From assembly GCF_921293095.1 (NCBI RefSeq), contig NC_060251.1, positions 38,483,644 to 38,547,643 on the forward strand: a DNA stretch of 64,000 nt, read 5' to 3'. The position numbers and the translations under genes were made by a program. The notes under the pieces are model-generated. The model was not told where the DNA came from. It was given only the letters and a program-made list of their open reading frames with translations, and did no database searches. The stretch comes from Ischnura elegans (Eukaryota > Arthropoda > Insecta > Odonata > Coenagrionidae). Shown in pieces: positions 13,921 through 25,299 of the stretch (position 1 is the stretch's first letter; each line of letters starts with the position of its first letter).

Positions 13921-13924
13921 ATAT
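13921..13924. repeat. Left target-site duplication (ATAT) of the provirus
   Basis: ATAT directly precedes the 5' LTR and is repeated at 25296-25299 after the 3' LTR. A 4-bp alternating pyrimidine/purine target is typical of Ty3/gypsy errantiviruses. Confidence 0.9.
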
Positions 13925-14205
13925 TGTTGTGTCCGTGGCCGCGTTCATGCAGGCTCGTGAGTGCAAACGCGAGTGCGGACGCACGTAGTGCGCCCGCACC
14001 TGCGAGTACAGTCGTACGATCAAGGGCACACGAGTTGGGGGACGAACACAAGGTCACCTCCAAGCGTCCTCTAAACACTTGGGCGGATGTTTCGCAACCG
14101 CACCTGCGTCTCGGGGCGGACGTGCGCTGACTACCGGAAACGCTGCGGTTGTCGGCGGACGTGATTGCGAGACATATGCTGGTGCAAAACAGGATGCGTT
14201 CCAAG

Positions 14206-14242
14206 TATAAAAGGGAGAGCCTCCGGCTCACAAGTTGTCAGT
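14206..14242 (+). promoter_or_regulatory. Provirus core promoter: TATA box and TCAGT initiator
   Basis: TATAAAAG at 14206-14213 is followed by the arthropod initiator TCAGT at 14238-14242, whose A (14240) is the likely transcription start and the U3/R border. The spacing is a few bases longer than the commonest TATA-initiator distance. Confidence 0.7.
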
Positions 14243-14289
14243 CTTTGGCCCAACGCTGGACGTACCCTGCGGAGCACTAGCCTCCCAGT

Positions 14290-14313
14290 GAGAGAGAGAG
14301 AAAGAGAGAGAGA
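14290..14313 (+). promoter_or_regulatory. GA-rich tract downstream of the start site
   Basis: Alternating GAGAG repeats lie about 50-75 bases downstream of the predicted start. GAGAG is the binding word of the insect GAGA factor, so this may be a downstream promoter or chromatin-opening element. That role is inferred. The copy in the 3' LTR is at 25132-25155. Confidence 0.4.
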
Positions 14314-14331
14314 CTTCTAACTGTGACGGAT

Positions 14332-14337
14332 AATAAA
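14332..14337 (+). terminator. Polyadenylation signal AATAAA in the LTR
   Basis: AATAAA lies inside R. The functional copy for viral RNA would be the one in the 3' LTR at 25174-25179. Confidence 0.6.
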
Positions 14338-14455
14338 CACCGTTATGAGTTTAAGAAAGTCTGGCTTCTGATTCTCCTCGAGCTTCCCCGGTTGTAACCC
14401 CGGACGGTCCCCGATCCCGCTTTAAGGGTCTTGGTCGCCACAGGGATGCGACATT

Positions 14456-14473
14456 TGGTGGAGGCGCCGGGTA
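14456..14473 (+). other. Primer-binding site (tRNA not assigned)
   Basis: TGGTGGAGGCGCCGGG starts two bases after the LTR end and has the TGG needed to pair with a tRNA CCA end. Starting at the second TGG (14459) the first 11 bases resemble the complement of a tRNA-Thr end with one mismatch. I cannot settle which tRNA is used. Confidence 0.6.
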
Positions 14474-14526
14474 TAGCCTAGAGGACCGACGGTGAGACCG
14501 GAGAACACGGACAGGATCAGAGCCAA

Positions 14527-14535
14527 AGGGTAAGT
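14527..14535 (+). promoter_or_regulatory. Leader 5' splice site
   Basis: AGG|GTAAGT with the GT at 14530-14531 is close to a perfect consensus. It lies in the leader between primer site and gag, where retroviruses place the donor for env mRNAs. It would pair with the acceptors before ORF3, env1 and env2. The leader exon contains two short upstream frames (14345-14371 and 14446-14481). Confidence 0.7.
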
Positions 14536-14634
14536 ACGCTGCCTCTTTCTAAAAAATGTCTTTTACTGTTCTATGAATGTTTGTTAGTTGTTTTTGAAGA
14601 CTCTATGATTTGACGAGTGCCTTGAGATGTTGTT

Positions 14635-15927
14635 ATGTCAGCAAACCCACGACGTAGCCGGCGGTTATTAGGTAGGGAGCCTATAATATTCGCAGCAGTC
14701 CGTCCACAATTAAGAGTACCCCGTATAGAAGAATTGAGAGAGGAAAGGATAGGATTGAGAGTACGCCCTATAGAAGAACTCTTAGAGCCAAGAGTAGAAT
14801 TTGAGCAGGACCCAGGATTAGAGGACTTAGTACAGGACGAAGATAGAGAAATGGCTTCCCCAGCTAGTGGACCGAGGTCGGAAACTCCGGCAAGTGCCGA
14901 CGGGGCGAGCAGGGAAGGCAGTGAGACCGTCACAACGTGTAGGCACGAAGACGTGCGAAACGTAAGAGGGACCCTATGCAATTTAACGCCGCCAAAATTC
15001 AAAGGCCTTGAGGGGGAAGATCCGTGCCATTATGTCAGTCATTTCAGCAAGATAGCAATAGCAAACGGCTGGGATGACAGCACAAAAGTTAAACTTTTTC
15101 CCTGTTTTTTAGAGGGAACCGCGGCACGATGGTTACAAGCGCTCGATGGGTACGATAGCGACACAGGCGTAGTCCACGGGGACTGGGAGGATCTGACAAG
15201 GGCTTTTAAGGCCGCTTTTAAAGGAACATTTTCGGACGAGCTGAAAGAGAAGAGATTACGAGAACGGAAGCAAGGGCCCTTTGAGTCAACAGAGGGATAC
15301 TTCTATGACACAAAAGCACTTTGTAAAGAAGTAGACCCACAGATGTCGGAAGCCGAGATGGTACGAAACATAATAAAAGGTCTAAGACCCCAATTATTAA
15401 TGAACATAGTACCGAGGGAACCACGCACCACCGGAGCTCTCTTGGGGTTCATCAGATTAGAAGAAGAGGCGGCTTGCCTAGCTGACGCGGTTAAGGAAAG
15501 ACGACCTCCGACAATGATCCTCAAGGAGACGGGGGGAACTTCCGACCGAAGGGTAGAGGAAGAATTGGAAAGACTACGGGCCGAAATCCGCCAACTGAAA
15601 TACAGGAACGAGCACCCCCCGAGGGAATCAGGGCAGCCTAGGAGAAGGCAAGGAGACTCGAGGCCGACGTACGGGGGACCCTCGCCGTTCTCCCAAGCAT
15701 CTAGAACCCGGGAAGGCAAGCCCATCTGCTACCAATGCAGAGAGACGGGTCATGTGGCTGCCGCGTGTCCAAAGAACAAGCCGCGATGCTACACTTGCCA
15801 GGGTTACGGGCACCGGGCTGCACAGTGCCCCTCACGAGCCCCGAGGGCGGACCAAGGAAGGTTCCAGACCCGGAACACCAACCAAAGGTGGGAGAGGCCA
15901 CCAAATGGCAGCCCGCGCGCGCAGTAG
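14635..15927 (+). CDS. gag: Gag polyprotein
   Basis: A 430-residue structural polyprotein. Residues about 1-110 are charged and probably matrix-like. Residues about 117-290 form a Ty3/gypsy capsid region (LTPPKFKGLEGEDP, then AARWLQALDG and LRERKQGPFEST). A charged coiled stretch lies at 305-325. Two CCHC zinc knuckles follow, CYQCRETGHVAAAC (365-378) and CYTCQGYGHRAAQC (385-398), which bind genomic RNA. The ATG is the first in this frame after a TGA at about 14623, but several out-of-frame ATGs lie between the leader splice site and it. The last 223 nt of the frame overlap pol. Gag alone is expected to be the major product of unspliced RNA. Confidence 0.95.
   Translation: MSANPRRSRRLLGREPIIFAAVRPQLRVPRIEELREERIGLRVRPIEELLEPRVEFEQDPGLEDLVQDEDREMASPASGPRSETPASADGASREGSETVTTCRHEDVRNVRGTLCNLTPPKFKGLEGEDPCHYVSHFSKIAIANGWDDSTKVKLFPCFLEGTAARWLQALDGYDSDTGVVHGDWEDLTRAFKAAFKGTFSDELKEKRLRERKQGPFESTEGYFYDTKALCKEVDPQMSEAEMVRNIIKGLRPQLLMNIVPREPRTTGALLGFIRLEEEAACLADAVKERRPPTMILKETGGTSDRRVEEELERLRAEIRQLKYRNEHPPRESGQPRRRQGDSRPTYGGPSPFSQASRTREGKPICYQCRETGHVAAACPKNKPRCYTCQGYGHRAAQCPSRAPRADQGRFQTRNTNQRWERPPNGSPRAQ
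15705..15927 (+). other. gag-pol overlap, -1 frameshift region
   Basis: The pol frame opens at 15705 (after a TAG at 15702-15704) and gag ends at 15927. Pol is in the -1 frame relative to gag, so Gag-Pol needs a -1 ribosomal shift within these 223 nt. Reading the gag codons through the overlap I find no canonical X XXY YYZ heptamer, so the slip site is unusual or the junction is made another way. Confidence 0.8.
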
Positions 15928-18900
15928 GAGGAACGTCCGCGGGCAGGACCATAGATGACGACCTCCTCCGTATAGCAGGGAAACTGAGTGGTAAGTACAC
16001 TCCCATAGTTCTAGATACCGGCTCATGTGTTAGCTTAATAAGCAGTGAATTGGTGGAAGGATCGAAAGTAGAGCCCGAAAAGCGTGTACTTAGGGCGGCT
16101 AACGGCCAGTGTTTGAGAAGCTCGGGTCGAATAAAATTAGAAATCGACTTAGGTGGAAAACAATTTGATGTAACATTCAGTGTTATTGAAGACTTTGCAT
16201 GGCCTGTGTTGTTGGGAACAGATTTCCTTGTTCACTACAAGGCTGTAATAGATTTTAATAGGATGTTTGCAAAGTTCGCGCACCCCGAGCAAGAGGTCGT
16301 CATTCCAATTGGTAAGGAAATGTCTGAAAATGTTAGAGCCCTCGTAGAATCCTTTATAGAAGACATGAATCCGGTGTTCGAGGACATAGTGCATAGATAT
16401 TTGGCAAATAGAGATGTGGATGAAGAAGAGGTCGATGGAGGATCTGAGAAAATGACGGCAGAAGAAGATGTCCGAATTCCGCCGAGATCCACAGTGAAAA
16501 TTCCGGTGAAGGGACCGCGCAATGGCGGCACAGATAAAGTAATAGTGGCAGAACGTTTGAATAAGCAAGGAGTGACTTTAGAGAAGGTGGAAGTAGTAGA
16601 GGATAAAATGATAGCTGCTCTACGTAACCACCGCTTCATACCGAAGGCAGTATTAAAAGATACAACCCTAGGTAGATGGGGTAATACTGAGAACATGGAG
16701 AGTGACTATACGGAAGAAATTCCTAAGAATTTCATAGATTTTAGAGAAACTGACCGCGCGAAACTAGAAATAAACCCTCAGCTGACGTGGGAACAGAGAC
16801 AGGAAATGAACGAGTTAATAAAGGAGTTTGACGATGTGTTTGCTTGGACGCCCGATAGACTGGGGAAAACGCACTTAGTGGAGCATACAATCCCCCTAGA
16901 AAATGAGACGCCTATTCACCAACCGCCGTACCGTGTTTCGCATAAAGAGAAAGAGATTATTAGAGAACAAGTGGACGAAATGTTAAAATTAGGTGTAATT
17001 AGACCATCAAATTCTCCATGGGCATCCCCCGTCGTTCTTGTGAAAAAGAAAGACGGCGGATGGCGTTTTTGTGTCGATTATCGTAAGCTGAATGCCGTCA
17101 CCAGAAAAGATAGTTACCCATTGCCAGTCATAGACGACATTTTGAGCTATCTGGGTGAAGCAAAATACTTTACCAGTCTGGACATGTTTAGTGGATATTG
17201 GCAAATAGCAATGAAAGAGGAAGACAAGCCAAAAACAGCTTTCATTACTCCAGATGGCCTTTATGAATTTAATGTACTAAGCTTTGGATTAACGTCGGCC
17301 CCTATGAGTTTTCAGTGGTTGGCAGACACCGTTCTGGCAGGTCTTAAATGGAATAAGGCGTTGGTATACTTAGATGATATTTTGGTATATGGGAAAACGT
17401 ATGGAGAATTATTAGAAAATACGCGTTTGGTTTTTCAGAGATTAAGGGAAGCGGGGCTCACCCTAAAACCTTCGAAATGCCATTTCGGAATGACCACAAC
17501 CAACATTTTGGGTCACACCGTCAGTGGGGAAGGGATAAAACCGGACGAAGGGAAAATAAAGGCGGTCCAAGAGTTTCCACAACCGAAAAAAGTGAAAGAT
17601 GTACAAAGCTTTTTAGGTCTTTGTAATTTTTACAGAAAATTTGTTAAAGATTTCTCTAGAATAGCTAGGCCCCTTCACCTACTCACGAGGAAGGATACAA
17701 CATTCAAGTGGTCCGAGAAAGAGGAAAAGGCTTTCCAGGAGTTAAAGACAGCCCTAACGACTGCGCCCGTTCTAAGGCATTACTCACCAAAGCTCCCCCT
17801 TGAACTACGCGTAGATGCCTCAGGCTTTGGCCTGGGTGCGATCCTATTGCAAGGAGAAGGGAAGGACATTCGCCCTGTGGCGTACGCTTCAAGAACTCTG
17901 TCTAAAGCTGAACAGAATTATCCCATAACGGAAAAGGAATGTTTGGCCGCCGTGTGGGCGCTAACTCATTTCCGACCGTACGTATGGGGACAGAAGATAA
18001 AGATAGTGACTGACCACCACGCCCTATGCTGGTTAAAATCCATAAAAGATCCCTCGGGCAGGTTGGCAAGATGGAGCTTACGCCTACAAGAAATAGATTA
18101 CGTAGTTCAATACAAGTCAGGACGGACGCATAACGATGCCGATTGCCTTTCCCGAAATCCAAATTCAAGCCCCGATGAAAAAGAATCAGAGGAGGCGGAC
18201 GAAATACCTATGCTGTCCCTGTTGGGGAAAAGAAACGAAGTAGGACCAAAAGAGATGGCTATACTTGCATTACTTGGCGAGGAAATAGGTAAAGCACAGA
18301 GAGAAGACGAGGAGTTAGCTCCTATGATTCAGGCCTTGGAAGAACCAGATAAGGTGGATGACATGATGTTAAAAAACGTCAGATTCTTCACCTTAAAAGA
18401 CGGTGTGCTGTTAAAGAGAAATGGAGGGACAAGAGGGAAAATGCGCTTGACAGTGATCCCGAAAAAGCTTCAACAGGAAGTAATGTACGCGAGTCATGAT
18501 GACCCACTGTCGGGCCACTTAGGTTTTTCCCGAACTTACGACAAATTAAGAATGCGTTATTATTGGAGAGGAATGAAAAATGACGCCTTAAGATACGTGA
18601 GAGGTTGCCCAGACTGTCAGGTGAGGAAAGGACCGCACGAGAAACCAGCGGGGTTTCTGCAGGCAATATCGCCAGGTCAGCCATTCGAGAAGATAGGCGT
18701 TGACTTGCTGGGTCCTTTCAGACGTAGCGGGAGAGGAAAGACGATGATAGTCGTTGCTACGGACTATGCGACGAGATGGGCCGAAACTAAGGCCTTGACA
18801 AACGGGACAGCCGAACAAGTCTCTAAATTTCTACTAGAGCAGATCATCTGCAGACATGGGGCACCAAAGACAATCCTCACAGATAGAGGAAAAGTGTTTC

Positions 18901-19505
18901 AGTCAGCATGTATTAAGTCTCTGCTGACGAGCATGGGAGTGGTACGGTCATTCACAACGGCCTACCATCCCCAGACAAATGGCCTTACAGAAAGGCTTAA
19001 TAAGACACTAGCAGAAATGTTAAGTGCGTTCACAGGAGAACAACAGAAGGACTGGGACGAGTTCTTACCCCAAGTCACGTTTGCCTACAATACGACACGG
19101 CAAGCGACGTATGGAGAGACTCCATATTTTCTAGTCCATGGTAGAGAAGCAGTGTTACCCCCTGAGGCAATGTTAGGGGATAGAGAAGATTCGGACTGGA
19201 CGAAAGACCGAGAAAGGTTAGAGGAAGCAAGAAATAGAGCTTTAGAAATGTTAGCCCAGAGACAGAAAAAAGAAGCAGTAAGATACAATGCACAGCGAAA
19301 AGAGAGAGAATTCGCCGTGGGAGATCTGATCAGATTATATACGCCGAACAGGAAGGTGGGGAAGAGTGAGAAACTTCTTCCACAATACCAAGGTCCATTC
19401 AAGGTACTTGAAAGGAAGGGACCAGTCAATTACGAGATAGAGAAGGCGAAAGGCAAAAAAGACGTAGTACACGTCTCACGGATGACTCCATACAACCTAA
19501 GGTAA
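15705..19505 (+). CDS. pol: Pol polyprotein: protease, reverse transcriptase, RNase H, integrase
   Basis: Numbering is from the in-frame ATG at 15735 (1,256 codons); the true N-terminus depends on the frameshift. The retropepsin has its catalytic D94-T95-G96 and the flap-side LLGTDFL at 159-165. The reverse transcriptase spans about 399-590, with CVDYRKLN, TSLDMFSGYWQI and the active site Y545-LDD. RNase H runs about 688-806 (VDAS D694, EKE near 735, TD760HH, DADCLSR). The integrase zinc module is H921, H928, C958, C961. The catalytic triad D990, D1050, E1086 has D,D-35-E spacing. The C-terminus ends VHVSRMTPYNLR, as in metazoan Ty3/gypsy elements, with no chromodomain. All catalytic residues are present and the frame has no stop. 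It ends in TAA, immediately followed in the same frame by the open stretch leading to ORF3. Confidence 0.96.
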   Translation, partial: NPGRQAHLLPMQRDGSCGCRVSKEQAAMLHLPGLRAPGCTVPLTSPEGGPRKVPDPEHQPKVGEATKWQPARAVGGTSAGRTIDDDLLRIAGKLSGKYTPIVLDTGSCVSLISSELVEGSKVEPEKRVLRAANGQCLRSSGRIKLEIDLGGKQFDVTFSVIEDFAWPVLLGTDFLVHYKAVIDFNRMFAKFAHPEQEVVIPIGKEMSENVRALVESFIEDMNPVFEDIVHRYLANRDVDEEEVDGGSEKMTAEEDVRIPPRSTVKIPVKGPRNGGTDKVIVAERLNKQGVTLEKVEVVEDKMIAALRNHRFIPKAVLKDTTLGRWGNTENMESDYTEEIPKNFIDFRETDRAKLEINPQLTWEQRQEMNELIKEFDDVFAWTPDRLGKTHLVEHTIPLENETPIHQPPYRVSHKEKEIIREQVDEMLKLGVIRPSNSPWASPVVLVKKKDGGWRFCVDYRKLNAVTRKDSYPLPVIDDILSYLGEAKYFTSLDMFSGYWQIAMKEEDKPKTAFITPDGLYEFNVLSFGLTSAPMSFQWLADTVLAGLKWNKALVYLDDILVYGKTYGELLENTRLVFQRLREAGLTLKPSKCHFGMTTTNILGHTVSGEGIKPDEGKIKAVQEFPQPKKVKDVQSFLGLCNFYRKFVKDFSRIARPLHLLTRKDTTFKWSEKEEKAFQELKTALTTAPVLRHYSPKLPLELRVDASGFGLGAILLQGEGKDIRPVAYASRTLSKAEQNYPITEKECLAAVWALTHFRPYVWGQKIKIVTDHHALCWLKSIKDPSGRLARWSLRLQEIDYVVQYKSGRTHNDADCLSRNPNSSPDEKESEEADEIPMLSLLGKRNEVGPKEMAILALLGEEIGKAQREDEELAPMIQALEEPDKVDDMMLKNVRFFTLKDGVLLKRNGGTRGKMRLTVIPKKLQQEVMYASHDDPLSGHLGFSRTYDKLRMRYYWRGMKNDALRYVRGCPDCQVRKGPHEKPAGFLQAISPGQPFEKIGVDLLGPFRRSGRGKTMIVVATDYATRWAETKALTNGTAEQVSKFLLEQIICRHGAPKTILTDRGKVFQSACIKSLLTSMGVVRSFTTAYHPQTNGLTERLNKTLAEMLSAFTGEQQKDWDEFLPQVTFAYNTTRQATYGETPYFLVHGREAVLPPEAMLGDREDSDWTKDRERLEEARNRALEMLAQRQKKEAVRYNAQRKEREFAVGDLIRLYTPNRKVGKSEKLLPQYQGPFKVLERKGPVNYEIEKAKGKKDVVHVSRMTPYNLR

Positions 19506-19528
19506 GTGGAAAATAGGAAATCAAGCAG

Positions 19529-19543
19529 TCTGATTCATTTCAG
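19529..19543 (+). promoter_or_regulatory. 3' splice site for ORF3 mRNA
   Basis: A CTGAT branch-like word and TTCATTTCAG end at 19543. The ORF3 ATG begins two bases into the downstream exon (19545). Joined to the leader donor at 14530, this would make ORF3 the first long frame of a subgenomic RNA. Confidence 0.5.
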
Positions 19544-19544
19544 A

Positions 19545-20120
19545 ATGGCGGATCTTGGAAGGTGTGGGATTTGCAAGGAAAAAGGGCACACCCCTGGAAA
19601 TTGCCCTGAATGGCCTACTGCAGAATGTTACCCCAGCCCACCGATCACCTTTCCCGACACGCTGACAGTGTCCGGGATGGTATGTGGGGTACTCAGTCAC
19701 CACATCAAGGTCCTTCCATGTAGTGAATATACATGGGTGGACCCAAGGATCCTCCCGGGGGATCGGAGGGGAAAGTCGATGGAGATAATTCCCTTAGAAC
19801 TGGGAAGCCAGAGGTTTAATCCATGGGGCCACATTGTGTGGAATCCAGGACTACCCCTGGAACTGGGTCTGGATTTTCTCCAGAGAGCGGGGGCAGTAAT
19901 TGACCTGAGGAGCTGCCAGTTAATATTTCCAGGAAACAACGCTCTCCCTCTCCATCGAGCAACACCCTTCGTGTGGGAATGTGAGGACCCCACCGGCCGG
20001 GAATTCGACGACATCCTGAGGATGGAATGCATTCCCGGATCAACGGTACTTAATTCCATTCTTCTCTTTTTTATAATAGATCCAAGACTACCAGGACGAC
20101 TGGAGAGAGACTTTGCTTGA
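19545..20120 (+). CDS. ORF3: zinc-knuckle protein with inactive retropepsin-like domain
   Basis: A 191-residue protein from the first ATG; the frame is open back to the pol stop. The N-terminus holds a complete CCHC knuckle, CGICKEKGHTPGNC, like those of Gag. The rest resembles a retropepsin: TLTVSGMVCGVL, a strand IKVLPCSEYTWVDPRIL where DTG would sit, and LELGLDFLQRAGAVIDL, which parallels LLGTDFLVHYKAVIDF of this element's own protease. The DTG triad is absent, so it should not cleave. It may bind RNA and pair with, or act as a decoy for, the protease, which works as a dimer; this is inference. Its last codons also encode the polypyrimidine tract of the env1 splice site. It does not match a standard errantivirus gene. 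Confidence 0.8.
   Translation: MADLGRCGICKEKGHTPGNCPEWPTAECYPSPPITFPDTLTVSGMVCGVLSHHIKVLPCSEYTWVDPRILPGDRRGKSMEIIPLELGSQRFNPWGHIVWNPGLPLELGLDFLQRAGAVIDLRSCQLIFPGNNALPLHRATPFVWECEDPTGREFDDILRMECIPGSTVLNSILLFFIIDPRLPGRLERDFA
20055..20079 (+). promoter_or_regulatory. 3' splice site for env1 mRNA
   Basis: A long pyrimidine tract (CCATTCTTCTCTTTTTTATA) precedes ATAG|A with AG at 20078-20079. The first ATG downstream is that of env1, 88 nt into the exon. The signal lies inside the 3' end of ORF3. Confidence 0.65.
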
Positions 20121-20167
20121 TTGGTTTACAACTGAAGGGACCAAACAGTGAGTAAAGGTAGCACACA

Positions 20168-21961
20168 ATGACCCTCTTAACGGCTTTAATTACGATGGGG
20201 GGCATAATTTGTTTTGGTATGGGAAGCGAAATACCTATGGTTAAGAAAATCAATGCAGGCACTTACTGGACACCATTGCCCGACGTAGTGGCATATGAGG
20301 CATCCTTGCCCAGATTGTATAAAGTTAAATGGGGACGTGAAATTACGAGATTTACACCAAAGGAACATGATTGTGAAAGTCGGGATGATATCTGCTCTGC
20401 CATACATACTTTGGATATTACGATGACCAAGCTACAAACTGTTTTAACAGACCTCAATTTAACACCGAAATATTTAAAGATTGGTAACAAGAGAGAGAAA
20501 AGAGGATTGGACTTTTTGGGTGCCGCGTTTAGATGGTGCTGTGGGGTTGCTACCGAAAAACAATTAAAATCAGTAGAACGAAATGTAGACACGTACCAGC
20601 AGAAATTATCAGAATTCGGGAATGCATTACAGAAAGAACATAACTATCTGTTAGACGCAACTCAGAATATACGAAATTATTCCAAAGAAATGGAAAAATC
20701 ATTTGATGAATTACAGAAACACGTCATACGAGTCGAGCAAGGGATGAACATGAGATTATTTGAGGGTGAGGCTAAGCACTTTCGTGACCTCATTAGAGTA
20801 GTTGGTACGAGTATGGGCACCCAGGCAACATTAATAAATACCATTAAAGAAAATGAAGCTCTCCACTATTGCCGAAACAATCTTTTTCCTATCTCTCTGG
20901 TAAAACTTTCAGACTTACAAGATGATTTAAATAACTTAAATAACAAATTAAACCCTTTAGGCTACGAATTAGCACAAAAAGAAGTTACCGAACTGATGAC
21001 AATGAAAATAGCCCAATGCACGTTACGAGAAGGCGAATTATTAATTAGATTTAACGTTCCTCTTATAAAGAAGGGAGCCCAGTGGAAATTATACGAAATA
21101 AGTGCCACACCTTTCGGTTGGAAAAACGAAACCTGTGTAATCTTGCACAACGTAGTCTATGCAGCAGTAGATGGGGGAAGGCTGCGGACACTTTCGGGAC
21201 CCGCGATGCATGACTGCCGTCCATTTGAAGATAAATTATGTTTTTTACCTAGATTCCATGGGGACACCTCACATGGTCCCCAATGCGCTCTGACGATGTT
21301 CAAGGGAGCAACAGCGAAACAATTAAACGAGGCGTGCACTCTCCGCTGTCATCCAGGTCAGAGTACCATTATTACTGAGGTTGCATTTGAGAAATACGTA
21401 ATCACCCATCCACCCCCCTCAATTAAAGTAAACTGTGGCCAGAGATCGCGGGAAATAAAGACCGCACTAGAAGGACCAGGAGCACTTGAACTAGTATTGC
21501 CATGTCAATGCCAGGCCAGAATATCAGGAGACTTATGGATACCGGCCGCATTTCCTTGTAACAAGGACGGAAATGTTCAAGTTCAAACGACTCATGTATT
21601 ACCGGCAATATGGTCCACACTGGACACCATCGTAGTAGACCCAAGGCGACCCGAAACTTTGCCAGAATTCGAAAACTTATCAGATTTCTTAAATGAGAAA
21701 TGGGTTATAAAGACCCCGCATTTAAATCTGTCACGTCCAGATTGGGAAATTGATACAAATGTCCCCATGTTGAGAACGGATTATGGAGAGGAAATTGGTA
21801 GTACTGGTCTTGTGTGGTGCCTCCTCATGTCTGTTTTGGTTGCCCTAATTACTTACCGTGTGTACAAACACGAACAATATATGCCTTACTTGGTGAAAAT
21901 GGAGGACGGAAGAGAATTATTTGTGGCCAAGAAGGCCCGAAATCAGGGAGAGGTAAGATAG
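20168..21961 (+). CDS. env: Env1: F-type fusion glycoprotein
   Basis: A 597-residue class I-like envelope protein of the errantivirus/baculovirus F family, acting at the virion or cell membrane. Residues 1-19 look like a signal peptide. A furin site R109-E-K-R112 is followed directly by a hydrophobic glycine-rich fusion peptide, GLDFLGAAFRWCCGVAT (113-129). A heptad-like helical region runs about 131-200. A C-terminal cysteine-rich ectodomain follows (C235 to C464), then a transmembrane segment at about 546-565 and a 32-residue tail. N-glycosylation sites occur at N97, N170, N320, N503 and N520. The frame is intact. A 5' splice-site-like GAG|GTAAGA overlaps the last codons (21953). Expression is probably from spliced RNA using the acceptor at 20079. 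Confidence 0.93.
   Translation: MTLLTALITMGGIICFGMGSEIPMVKKINAGTYWTPLPDVVAYEASLPRLYKVKWGREITRFTPKEHDCESRDDICSAIHTLDITMTKLQTVLTDLNLTPKYLKIGNKREKRGLDFLGAAFRWCCGVATEKQLKSVERNVDTYQQKLSEFGNALQKEHNYLLDATQNIRNYSKEMEKSFDELQKHVIRVEQGMNMRLFEGEAKHFRDLIRVVGTSMGTQATLINTIKENEALHYCRNNLFPISLVKLSDLQDDLNNLNNKLNPLGYELAQKEVTELMTMKIAQCTLREGELLIRFNVPLIKKGAQWKLYEISATPFGWKNETCVILHNVVYAAVDGGRLRTLSGPAMHDCRPFEDKLCFLPRFHGDTSHGPQCALTMFKGATAKQLNEACTLRCHPGQSTIITEVAFEKYVITHPPPSIKVNCGQRSREIKTALEGPGALELVLPCQCQARISGDLWIPAAFPCNKDGNVQVQTTHVLPAIWSTLDTIVVDPRRPETLPEFENLSDFLNEKWVIKTPHLNLSRPDWEIDTNVPMLRTDYGEEIGSTGLVWCLLMSVLVALITYRVYKHEQYMPYLVKMEDGRELFVAKKARNQGEVR
20492..20554 (+). other. Env1 furin site and fusion peptide
   Basis: This encodes the RxKR cleavage motif and the adjacent fusion peptide (residues 109-129). 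Processing here would separate an N-terminal subunit of about 112 residues from the membrane-anchored subunit, as in baculovirus F proteins. Confidence 0.85.
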
Positions 21962-22471
21962 GGTACGGAAACCCTTGCACAATGAGCAGCATCTAGATGC
22001 ATGGAATGGCATGATTGCATGAAATTTCAGAGATAAGGGAGACAAGCTTGAATAGAGAGAACTAACCAATACACTAGAGTGATGATGCATGTGAACTAAC
22101 TGGGCTAACATGACACTAAACCGCGGAACCCAACGAAGGGGTGAAAATGAAAACAGAGGGAAAGAAAAATGCAATGCGCTCTTGTCCGGCGACTCGCTCA
22201 CACCTAAAGAAGGAAGATGTTAGGAGCGTTGGACAAGACCGCCTTGTGAAGAGTCTCGAGACATCTCTCCAATTGAAAGAGAGAATGAAGTAATGGCCAA
22301 GTCGACAATCTAGATTAGTTGGAGATAATAGTAGTATCAATTTTGTAGTTTTAAGTGAATTTTTTTAGCATTAGTACAAGGTATCTAAGGAGTGGCCTGA
22401 TCAACCACTTTCTTTTTCCTTGAAGCTCTCTGAAGTGGAAGCCGCTGTCGCGCTCGCCGAGTGGAAAGAAA
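21962..22471 (+). other. Non-coding spacer between env1 and env2
   Basis: About 510 nt with no long sense frame. It ends in the env2 splice acceptor and a 46-nt leader. I see no internal LTR, so env2 does not look like the remnant of a second inserted provirus. Confidence 0.6.
22402..22425 (+). promoter_or_regulatory. 3' splice site for env2 mRNA
   Basis: A CCTGATC branch-like word lies just upstream. ACTTTCTTTTTCCTTGAAG then gives AG at 22424-22425. The first ATG downstream is the env2 start, 46 nt into the exon. Confidence 0.65.
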
Positions 22472-24280
22472 ATGCGACAAACGAAGATGAGGTTACATCT
22501 TTATAACTTGTTAATATTAGTCATTGGCAGAGTAATCTGGACGGAGGGCACCAAAGAAGTTCCAGTGGATATAACAGCTGGGGCATTGTTCCGGCAGTTG
22601 CCGAATGTCACGCTGTACGAAACAACCATCCCCCTGATATTTAAGATTCCTTACCAGCCCGGAAAAGATTTAAACCTGATGTACCGGTATCTGGAAGAAA
22701 CATGCAATGAGGCCTGTGGGGAGTCAAAGGAGATCCTGCGGAGGGCGGTATCTAATTGGAATTGGAACAACTGGGCGAACACCTTCGGTGAGTCGCATCT
22801 GTCCAAAGATGGTACGGCCTTCGCAACCTCCTTTGCTCTACCAGAGAGACGGCATACGGGACGGATGGTAATTACGGAGCAAGAGGCGGACAACATGGAG
22901 CAGGACCTGAGGGCGCTGGGGGGACAATGGGACATGGAGATGGCTCCCCTCACGGTCAGACCCTCTCAGCAGTGCAACGCAGAGAACGGGGATGTCAGAC
23001 TAAAACTTCTAGAAGTATTGACACTTATTCGGACACAGGCTGACATTCTCCGTTCCTGTCAACATCGGAGACTAGACCCTATGGTTATAGACGTAAATAA
23101 CTTAAGAGATAAATTAATTCTCATTAGTCGGAAAATACGGCATGATGGGTACGAATTGGCTTTAAAACACCTATCCAGATATTATATCCTTAGCATGATG
23201 GATTGTTTGCTGTCTCCAAGTCACCTCTACTTGATCCTTTTACTTCCGTTAAAAAGACAGCATTTTGTACCTGCATTACATACCTTTCTTCCAATACCTT
23301 TCGCCAGGGAGGGGCATACCTGCGGAATAAAGATGCAAGCAACGGACTTCGCAATTCTAGCGGAACCACGGCGGATACAGATGAAGGTACTGGACTGCAA
23401 TCCACACAAGGACGAACTGTGCCTACTGGGAGACCCTTTGGGGGAAACGCTGACTACAGTCCGCTGTGCAGAGACCATGGTGAAAGGGGGGTCGGCAGCC
23501 AAACTTACATCGGTCTGCCCAATTGAATGTGTACCATCTGGTGACATGGTCGTCACCAAGATAAGTACCACGACCTACGTCATTACCAACCCCCCTGCCA
23601 ACGCCACGGTTCAATGCGAGTGGGCGAGGAATCGCTCACATTGGGCTACAGAGAATGTGGGCGCCTTCAAAGTGGATCTCCCCTGTGACTGTGTGTTGCA
23701 GTTAGGTGACGCCGAGTTTCGACCCCAGTACCCGTGTCTGTCCGCATCCGAATCCGTAGTTGTCCGCAGGTTAATCCCTGCTCCCTGGGCTTCTATTCCC
23801 TCCCTTTCCTTACCCCCCTACGATTCCCTGAACTTTGCCACGTGTGAAGTACTGAAAGACTGTGTAAAAAGTTCTTGGAAACCCTTCAACCCAGTGACAA
23901 TAATTTACCCTACTCTAGCCATATGTAGTCTAGTCATCTCAATTGTGTCAGTATTAGGGACAATATACATAGCATACCGAGTGCTGGCACCTAGGGGTAA
24001 AATGGACCCTTTATTAACATCAATGCCAAGGGATAAAATGGACCCTTTATTAACATCAATGCCAAGGGATAAAATGGACCCTCTATTAACATCAACGCCA
24101 AGGGAAGTTAACGTGTGCACGTCGTTCAGACGACCCGTGTGTCCTAGAACAGTAGCTCCGAAACCACCGCCAATTGAGACAATACCCTCTAGAAGACCTC
24201 CCGCTGTGACTCCAAGACCTATTTACAGCGAGATAAAAGAACCCGATTACCTGCCAATGCGTGAATTTTTGAATAAATAA
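22472..24280 (+). CDS. Env2: second, fusion-less envelope glycoprotein paralogue
   Basis: A 602-residue membrane glycoprotein. Residues about 8-24 form a signal peptide. The N-terminus parallels Env1: ITAGALFRQLPNVTLYE against INAGTYWTPLPDVVAYE. The C-terminal ectodomain has cysteines C196, 245, 284, 309, 317, 332, 349, 353, 382, 405, 407, 422, spaced almost exactly as in Env1. The middle differs: there is no RxKR site and no fusion peptide, and C78/C82 to C196 is shortened. A transmembrane segment lies at 475-502. The 100-residue tail is far longer than in Env1 and carries three 12-residue repeats plus YSEI and YLPM tyrosine motifs of the YxxΦ sorting type. N-glycosylation sites are N45, N377 and N387. 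It probably derives from duplication of env1. Roles such as attachment, superinfection exclusion or partner to Env1 are inference. Confidence 0.88.
   Translation: MRQTKMRLHLYNLLILVIGRVIWTEGTKEVPVDITAGALFRQLPNVTLYETTIPLIFKIPYQPGKDLNLMYRYLEETCNEACGESKEILRRAVSNWNWNNWANTFGESHLSKDGTAFATSFALPERRHTGRMVITEQEADNMEQDLRALGGQWDMEMAPLTVRPSQQCNAENGDVRLKLLEVLTLIRTQADILRSCQHRRLDPMVIDVNNLRDKLILISRKIRHDGYELALKHLSRYYILSMMDCLLSPSHLYLILLLPLKRQHFVPALHTFLPIPFAREGHTCGIKMQATDFAILAEPRRIQMKVLDCNPHKDELCLLGDPLGETLTTVRCAETMVKGGSAAKLTSVCPIECVPSGDMVVTKISTTTYVITNPPANATVQCEWARNRSHWATENVGAFKVDLPCDCVLQLGDAEFRPQYPCLSASESVVVRRLIPAPWASIPSLSLPPYDSLNFATCEVLKDCVKSSWKPFNPVTIIYPTLAICSLVISIVSVLGTIYIAYRVLAPRGKMDPLLTSMPRDKMDPLLTSMPRDKMDPLLTSTPREVNVCTSFRRPVCPRTVAPKPPPIETIPSRRPPAVTPRPIYSEIKEPDYLPMREFLNK
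23999..24106 (+). repeat. Three tandem 36-bp repeats in the env2 cytoplasmic tail
   Basis: Units 23999-24034, 24035-24070 and 24071-24106 each encode KMDPLLTSMPRD or a near copy (the third has T and E changes). The first two units are identical, the third has three substitutions. Each unit offers an acidic-LL word. Confidence 0.95.
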
Positions 24281-24347
24281 TAATTGTGTTTAGGACTGGT
24301 ATCTACAGGATAAGTGTTTGTGTTCAGATTAGGTTCTAGTGAATTTA

Positions 24348-24446
24348 TATAATAATCAGCAATTTTTGAATCTGTGTTAATTGATAGGAATATAATAATC
24401 AGCAATTTTTGAATTAGTGTTAATTGATAGGAATATTATAATCAGC
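24348..24446 (+). repeat. Tandem 43-bp repeat in the provirus 3' untranslated region
   Basis: Two full units (24348-24390 and 24391-24433), starting TATAATAATCAGCAATTTTT and ending TTGATAGGAA, are followed by a partial third. The repeat lies between the env2 stop and the polypurine tract. Confidence 0.9.
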
Positions 24447-24753
24447 TCTTCAAGTCATTATGTTGAACTGGACTCTTTTTGTGTATCAGTTGAGTCTCTT
24501 ATGTGCTTTATTATGAACATGCAGGCTGGACTCTAGTACCACCCTGAGACCCTTTCAGTGTAGCTATGAATGAACTAGTCTTGTGAAATTGTGGTGGACT
24601 CCAGCAGCTATTTAAACAGCTATATAATCCGTCCTGATGTATAATTTCTTATGGACAAGCAGCTATGTAACCTTTTTCTGTTTTGTAATTTCTGTGTCTC
24701 TAGTCAACTCTCTCGGACTCTCTCTGGTCACTTCGCCCGGAGGTCGAAGCTTT

Positions 24754-24766
24754 AAGGAGGGGGTGA
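24754..24766 (+). other. Polypurine tract
   Basis: AAGGAGGGGG followed by TGA abuts the 3' LTR. It would be the RNase H-resistant primer for plus-strand synthesis. Confidence 0.85.
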
Positions 24767-25295
24767 TGTTGTGTCCGTGGCCGCGTTCATGCAGGCTCGT
24801 GAGTGCAAACGCGAGTGCGGACGCACGTAGTGCGCCCGCACCTGCGAGTACAGTCGTACGATCAAGGGCACACGAGTTGGGGGACGAACACAAGGTCACC
24901 TCCAAGCGTCCTCTAAACACTTGGGCGGATGTTTCGCAACCGCACCTGCGTCTCGGGGCGGACGTGCGCTGACTACCGGAAACGCTGCGGTTGTCGGCGG
25001 ACGTGATTGCGAGACATATGCTGGTGCAAAACAGGATGCGTTCCAAGTATAAAAGGGAGAGCCTCCGGCTCACAAGTTGTCAGTCTTTGGCCCAACGCTG
25101 GACGTACCCTGCGGAGCACTAGCCTCCCAGTGAGAGAGAGAGAAAGAGAGAGAGACTTCTAACTGTGACGGATAATAAACACCGTTATGAGTTTAAGAAA
25201 GTCTGGCTTCTGATTCTCCTCGAGCTTCCCCGGTTGTAACCCCGGACGGTCCCCGATCCCGCTTTAAGGGTCTTGGTCGCCACAGGGATGCGACA
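24767..25295 (+). repeat. 3' long terminal repeat (529 bp)
   Basis: It is a copy of 13925-14453 at a constant offset of 10,842 bp with no difference seen on reading. Its TATA box is at 25048-25055 and AATAAA at 25174-25179. It is followed by the second ATAT (25296-25299). Confidence 0.97.
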
Positions 25296-25299
25296 ATAT
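25296..25299. repeat. Right target-site duplication (ATAT) of the provirus
   Basis: It matches 13921-13924. The pre-insertion sequence would have read GTTCATATGTTTT. Confidence 0.9.

Follow-up and report, generated by a model that had tools for sequence, protein, structure and literature searches.

In a 64,000-nucleotide stretch of Ischnura elegans DNA (NC_060251.1, positions 38,483,644 to 38,547,643 of the forward strand; hereafter the window), an element bounded by long terminal repeats (LTRs) spans positions 13925-25295 and carries, in order, gag, pol, a third open reading frame (ORF3), env1 and env2, all on the + strand. We analyzed the two env genes, env1 (20168-21961, 597 amino acids) and env2 (22472-24280, 602 amino acids). 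The original prediction, made from the window sequence, proposed two intact env frames behind pol; both the coordinates and the lengths were confirmed, and the two frames lie inside a single LTR-bounded provirus. env1 encodes an F-type glycoprotein with a cleavage site and a fusion-peptide-like stretch, and env2 is its paralogue.

The 5' LTR (13925-14453) and the 3' LTR (24767-25295) are 529 bp long and identical at all bases, indicating a recent insertion. A target-site duplication, ATAT, precedes the 5' LTR at 13921-13924 and follows the 3' LTR at 25296-25299, and a polypurine tract (AAGGAGGGGG) at 24754-24763 precedes the 3' LTR. The gag gene (14635-15927, 430 amino acids) encodes a Retrotrans_gag domain and two CCHC zinc knuckles and is overlapped by pol (15735-19505, 1256 amino acids), whose frame, by coordinate arithmetic, lies one base back (-1) relative to gag. 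pol encodes an aspartyl protease, a reverse transcriptase, an RNase H and an integrase, in that order, and the domains of both genes scored above the Pfam cut-offs. The LTR pair with its target-site duplication, the CCHC-type gag, the order of the pol domains and the F-type env located 3' of pol place the element in the Metaviridae, among the errantivirus-like Ty3/gypsy elements.

Env2 is a remodelled paralogue of Env1

Env1 has the features of a class I F-type fusion protein, as had been predicted. A furin-type site, KREKR (residues 108-112; 20489-20503), is followed by the hydrophobic, fusion-peptide-like stretch GLDFLGAAFRWCCG, a CC pair and a transmembrane anchor are present, and the structural model, of middling confidence, has the F fold. 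The Pfam Gypsy env model matched Env1 with an E value of 0.05, which is below the cut-off, and a sequence search of solved structures returned chance matches only; its relatives P0007, P0009 and P0011 carry the Baculo_F domain (PF12259).

Env2 aligned with Env1 at 27% identity (pairwise alignment, E = 7e-29) with 14 cysteines common to the two proteins, and its model, likewise of middling confidence, has the F-type head. The furin-type site (REKR), the hydrophobic fusion peptide behind it, most of the helix that follows and the CC pair are all absent from Env2, in agreement with the proposal that env2 is without fusion machinery. The further proposal that Env2 is a second, different kind of glycoprotein was not upheld, as it is a remodelled paralogue of Env1 built on the same head. 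Neither a Pfam scan nor a sequence search of solved structures returned anything for Env2, and the kinship was revealed by the pairwise comparison and the folds alone. We regard the pair as beyond chance because of this alignment and because relatives of both genes lie side by side across the genome, as described below. The homology to env1 and the pairs elsewhere in the genome also ruled out an unrelated gene, a nested element or a chance of assembly as the origin of env2.

Both proteins have a cysteine-rich ectodomain and the expected membrane anchor, the latter seen as a single strong C-terminal transmembrane peak starting at residue 543 in Env1 and at residue 482 in Env2. The prediction of a signal peptide in each protein held in part: the N-terminus is hydrophobic in both, but Env2 stayed below the hydropathy cut of 1.6 that Env1 exceeded. 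In the predicted model of Env2, residues 2-25 form an N-terminal helix.

The env1/env2 pair in the Ischnura elegans genome

We searched the I. elegans genome (1.72 Gb in 110 contigs) for further copies. All counts of places are lower bounds, and the copies fetched for comparison were selected through their env2 matches. The env2 search gave at least 83 matches (73 of 150 candidates scored) and the env1 search at least 76 (73 of 133 candidates scored), which clustered into at least 57 env2 places and at least 33 env1 places. All env1 places except one, a short fragment on C4, were followed by an env2 on the same strand no more than 10 kb downstream (32 of 33); the copies do not mostly hold env1 alone, and the two genes form a stable pair. 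By the same 10-kb rule, 25 of the 57 env2 places were without env1. A single env is normally the rule for the genus Errantivirus, from which the window element departs with its two env frames, as do the paired places.

At least three element families (A, B and C) were distinguished. The window element belongs to family A, in which env2 is 96-100% identical in the five copies covering most or all of it. Family B comprises 23 env2 places, 36-38% identical across some 570 residues, of which 20 were fetched and three assigned by identity alone, and family C has six env2 places at 38-39%, five of them fetched. Among the five family A copies compared, env2 was open in all and env1 in two. env2 was open and full-length in 19 of the 20 fetched family B copies (L027 has a TGA), and env1 was open in 10 of the 20 and broken in two; in the other eight, the fetched stretch yielded no env1. 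For the five fetched family C copies, env1 was open in two, broken in two and not found in one, and env2 was open and full-length in three, with L016 and L020 being without the usual start. Seven copies (L009, L010, L011, L017, L018, L030 and L034) have a damaged env1 and an open env2, and one (L016) has an open env1 and an altered env2 start; these copies were chosen via env2, and neither count is used as evidence here.

Two further observations concern the arrangement of the copies. At G000:C4:35082526-35111613, four successive env2 places, 8.8-9.9 kb apart, lie on one strand and are perhaps a tandem array; env1 was not found there. The spacer between env1 and env2 is 510 bp in the window and 1.8 kb in family B, where it contains 69-bp tandem repeats (L025, 3234-3369, with like places elsewhere).

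Of 227 candidates from a PF12259 search, 72 were scored, giving at least 72 further places with an F-type env; their frames were about 668 or 706 codons long or of other lengths. No env2 place, of the 56 compared, lay closer than 12 kb to any of the 72, although a more diverged second env, or one outside the candidates scored, would escape this comparison; the remaining env2 cluster (C1:99211805) was not typed. Only one pair among the 72 was within 12 kb of each other, at a distance of 8.9 kb. The families whose open frames have about 668 and 706 codons are seemingly single-env elements.

Family B copies without env1

Seven of the 20 fetched family B copies (L023, L026, L027, L028, L031, L037 and L040) lack the env1 stretch and have the same junction in its place. 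Upstream of the junction, 104-108 bp match L025, a copy of the env1-bearing form (B1), at 84-89%, and about 3.7 kb downstream, including env2, match it at 97-98%. In a tree of env2 DNA, copies of the env1-less form (B2, here six of the seven env1-less copies and the broken copy L035) were scattered among B1, with 7 changes compared to a mean of 5.9 with shuffled labels. B1 and B2 seem to swap 3' halves, like co-packaged elements, and to be recombinant, co-circulating forms.

env2 is under purifying selection

We calculated the ratio of nonsynonymous to synonymous substitution rates (dN/dS) pairwise on open frames by the NG86 method, excluding L027 with its TGA, L013 and damaged pieces. The ratios for env2 were 0.22 in family A (n=5), 0.09 in B1 (n=12), 0.07 in B2 (n=6) and 0.14 in family C (n=3), compared to 0.15 (B1, n=10) and 0.22 (family C, n=2) for env1; the two env1 frames of family A had no nonsynonymous and 9 synonymous differences. 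The within-family range of 0.07-0.22 indicates that env2 is under purifying selection, and relaxed selection on env2, which could have undermined the original prediction, was not seen. Variant-site counts, made on simple two-state codon columns, departed from neutral in every env2 set, also when the neutral ratio was lowered by 30% (p 1.5e-6 to 1.2e-19). The broken copy L035 was included in B2 for these counts (n=7) and for the env2 DNA tree, and was left out of the B2 dN/dS. Between families B and C, the env2 dN/dS was about 0.08, synonymous sites being almost saturated, and env1 was saturated and gave no value. env2 is as constrained in B2 as in B1, but because of the 3' exchange between the two forms, the selection on B2 env2 may have acted in B1.

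The constrained piece of env2 is the ectodomain, with a dN/dS of 0.06-0.17. The tail gave 0.47 and 0.68 in family B, 0.29 in family A and 0.16 in family C, and the whole tail is not constrained in family B. In family B (L021-L040), the dS of the env2 tail was 0.014-0.022, compared to 0.064-0.067 for the ectodomain, as if the tail overlapped another functional element.

Relatives of Env1 and Env2

A 596-amino-acid protein of Hetaerina americana, 40% identical over 97% of Env2, was the sole Env2-type relative among the 7999 candidates scored, those with the most shared words in a set of 5.8 billion proteins, and a profile search based on the two Env2 sequences gave no third member among the best 7999 candidates scored. 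Env1 relatives were recovered from metagenomes, three of them with Baculo_F, and from the firefly Aquatica leii (no Pfam domain is listed for the firefly protein); a scan of viral contigs with Env1 returned no relative. The I. elegans gene LOC124167822 (P0006) matches Env1 at 94% identity across 66% of Env1. This gene model resembles an env1 of the window's element family, shortened to 380 amino acids and without an internal stretch. P0011, a metagenome protein, combines a retropepsin domain with the C-terminal half of an Env1-type protein, through either an internal deletion or an effect of gene prediction.

In the tree, the Env2 proteins of families A, B and C and the Hetaerina protein lie on one side of a 100/100 branch, and Env1 and the other Envs lie on the other. 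Within the Env1 side and the Env2 side alike, B and C are sisters (100/100) with A outside, which is the pattern predicted by a single old duplication and subsequent joint descent. The furin-type site and the fusion peptide are missing from Env2 of all three families and of Hetaerina. The string RRxSKR occurs in Env2 of families B and C (RRHSKR/RRLSKR), and family A and Hetaerina have RRHTGR and RRHAER.

No errantivirus with two env genes was found among the literature matches listed, a coverage that did not extend to the likeliest place, Chary and Hayashi 2025. The main text of two papers on insect endogenous retroviruses (PMC12992720 and PMC13172572) held nothing relevant on 'two env', and the available part of a Bombyx survey (PMC6085415) held nothing relevant on two env genes.

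A conserved motif pair in the Env2 cytoplasmic tail

The Env2 tails of families A, B and C have a proline-rich stretch followed by YSEI, YEEI or YEVI, four residues and YLPM. The motif of the window element, YSEI-KEPD-YLPM, occupies residues 585-596 (24224-24259). In the Hetaerina tail, YENV is followed by ten residues and YLAM. The pattern Y-x-x-I/V, spacer, Y-L-x-M was present in 19 of 20 fetched family B copies, five of five fetched family C copies and seven of the eight distinct family A copies for which the end of env2 was retrieved, one of the seven having YLQM. The two copies that deviate, each by one residue, are damaged (L027, YLPL; L013, YSEM). The codons of the motifs vary at synonymous positions between families.

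Reading the tail as an immunoreceptor tyrosine-based activation motif (ITAM), for which the consensus is YxxL/I-x6-12-YxxL/I, was dropped: the spacing is four residues and the second motif ends in M in families A, B and C, and Hetaerina has a spacing of ten but V and M at the motif ends. pYEEI is a ligand of Src-family SH2 domains and YxxM is a ligand of PI3K p85, and YxxPhi endocytosis signals would fit the motifs as well as such an SH2-type reading. In Jaagsiekte sheep retrovirus (JSRV), the tyrosine of a YXXM motif in the Env tail matters for transformation, and direct binding of PI3K was not supported (PMC3917443). The env2 tail of the window element also contains a 36-bp repeat in 3.1 copies (23993-24105), which is not found in the aligned family B, family C and Hetaerina proteins. 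Another family A copy, L012, has an Env2 of 614 amino acids.

Putative splice sites for env2

A splice-donor-like GTAAGT (14530-14535) lies in the leader upstream of gag, predicted by consensus match only, and a 3' splice-site-like region (22405-22441) precedes env2, with a pyrimidine run, ...CTTGAAG and ...GGAAG/CCGCT (the slash marks the predicted boundary). Read by eye, the sequence before the env2 ATG is TTCTTAACAG/GCCGCT in family B and ATCCTCACAG/GCCGCT in family C. Both have CAG/GCCGCT at the same place as GGAAG/CCGCT of family A, which has the weakest site of the three families. The env2 acceptor-like sites of all families scored below the pyrimidine filter of 0.8. The leader donor and the env2 acceptors are consensus resemblances and thus predicted splice sites; from the acceptor-like sites, we infer that env2 probably has a spliced mRNA of its own, from which it is translated.

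ORF3 and other features

ORF3 (19545-20120, 191 amino acids) is counted from the ATG behind a CAG acceptor-like site; the listed frame of 204 amino acids begins with a GTG at 19506. It encodes one CCHC knuckle and a retropepsin-like segment without DTG/DSG, which gave a weak match to the element's own pol protease (E 0.002). An ORF3-like segment was also seen by eye between pol and env1 in the family C copy L016 (about 1500-1900). ORF3 is a possible conserved pseudo-protease accessory gene. Two 43-bp direct repeats, 95% identical, are located between env2 and the 3' LTR (24347-24432).

Discussion

We favor, with reasonable though not high confidence, the explanation that an old duplication of env gave rise to a fusogen-like Env1 and a selected, non-fusogenic Env2 that works as its companion. 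The window provirus looks young and intact, and the env of this errantivirus-like lineage would have been duplicated before the env2 of families A, B and C and the Hetaerina protein diverged. Env1 would have retained the class I fusion apparatus, and Env2 the F-type head and the membrane anchor. Having dropped the cleavage site, the fusion peptide and most of the following helix, Env2 would not be expected to fuse membranes in the usual way. Its head may bind a cell-surface or Env partner, and its proline-rich tail, with YxxI...YLPM, may recruit host adaptors for sorting, uptake or signalling. Env2 is maintained by purifying selection, presumably as a second glycoprotein on the surface of the cell or particle, and its job may be attachment, interference, or tail-mediated sorting or signalling. 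The original prediction had likewise suggested attachment, masking or regulation of Env1 as possible roles, but had not anticipated the conserved tyrosine motifs of the tail or the copies that keep env2 without env1. Three aspects of the tree are caveats to the proposed duplication and joint descent: the root is a midpoint root, long branches meet, and the metagenome Env P0007 lies among the Env1 types.

Env2 might instead be mainly a signalling or sorting receptor, whose head takes a ligand and whose tail interacts with SH3/SH2 proteins or clathrin adaptors in the host cell; of the alternatives, we find this one the least unlikely. The recurrence of YSEI/YEEI/YEVI/YENV and then YLPM/YLAM behind a proline-rich stretch in four Env2 types argues for it, and the conserved L and M of the second site exceed the requirement of a YxxPhi signal. 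However, short motifs are common, the dN/dS of the tail is not low in family B, and the four-residue spacing in families A, B and C is off the canonical ITAM; plain YxxPhi endocytosis would explain the motifs too.

We also doubt that Env2 serves mainly in interference or masking, by pairing with Env1 or filling its receptor in the producer cell and thereby limiting superinfection, cell-cell fusion or premature triggering of Env1. The retention of the F head and the 14 shared cysteines with the fusion parts gone is what one would expect from a dominant partner or decoy, and Drosophila Iris and receptor interference by retroviral Env are precedents. On the other hand, B2 copies keep an equally constrained env2 (0.07) with no env1 to mask, although B1 and B2 env2 intermix and the selection may be that of B1, and simple masking needs no conserved tail motif.

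The capture of an Iris-like host gene, derived from an older env and retaken by the element, is an improbable source of env2. With midpoint rooting, Env2 does form a deep branch separate from Env1 and the other single Envs. However, env2 lies beside env1 in each of the three families, and the splits in the two genes are congruent, which favors duplication within the element; no host locus was recognised in the genome searches with env2 and F-type env, the only searches made for one. It is more improbable still that Env2 fuses membranes in another way, using its LYLILL-type hydrophobic stretch as an internal loop or being cleaved at the RRxSKR of families B and C. The hydrophobic segment does lie in the head and the basic strings are present, but family A and Hetaerina are without a dibasic end, no hydrophobic N-terminus would be freed, and in the Env2 model the LYLILL-type stretch forms a beta strand (251-262) within the head. 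The lost fusion parts and long branches of Env2 might suggest a decaying, functionless leftover of the duplication, but this is scarcely tenable and is refuted by the selection data, unless those reflect something besides protein function, as env2 is open in the window copy, four further family A copies and 19 of the 20 fetched family B copies, has a dN/dS of 0.07-0.22 and is kept in three families and another damselfly.

A bolder reading is one that we put forward tentatively and would not expect to hold. A retroelement lineage no younger than the divergence of families A to C would have converted the duplicated class I fusogen into a receptor-like protein whose signalling tail is of the SH3/SH2 type. 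This protein would be used beside Env1 and, in env1-less relatives, without Env1, such that two co-circulating forms divide fusion and host-cell manipulation.

Retrovirus-like elements are expected to attach and fuse with one Env, and here a duplicate of env without fusion parts is conserved and selected in several families. The element offers a natural test of the value of an F-type glycoprotein apart from fusion, in attachment, interference, sorting or signalling. Many copies are available in the host genome, and the other F-type env families, in which env2 was not detected, provide a natural control in the same genome. The order of the damselfly host is early-branching among winged insects.

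Comparison with known systems

The damselfly element shares the LTR-gag-pol-env order with errantivirus-type elements such as gypsy, ZAM, Idefix and TED, and their F-type Env has a furin site as Env1 does; unlike these elements, which normally have one env, it has two and carries ORF3 between pol and env1. The attachment and F proteins of paramyxoviruses embody the same idea of pairing a non-fusion with a fusion protein, but their folds are unrelated, whereas Env1 and Env2 are paralogues, and any likeness would be one of function only. Drosophila Iris is a host-domesticated errantivirus env, F-type, without the cleavage and fusion parts and retained by selection; Env2 resembles it as a selected non-fusion F-type product, although Iris is a single host gene and env2 resides in multi-copy mobile elements. 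The tail tyrosine motif of JSRV Env is tied to host signalling (PMC3917443), as proposed for Env2, but JSRV Env is also a fusogen. The nearest precedent for a fusion-dead F protein kept beside a working fusogen is Ac23 of the group I baculoviruses (PMC4864199). This F-like protein has no furin site or fusion function and stays with the budded-virus membrane, and its deletion leaves the virus infectious with a somewhat longer time to kill. Ac23 sits beside the GP64 fusogen, which is not an F paralogue, whereas the fusogen neighbouring Env2 is its own paralogue.

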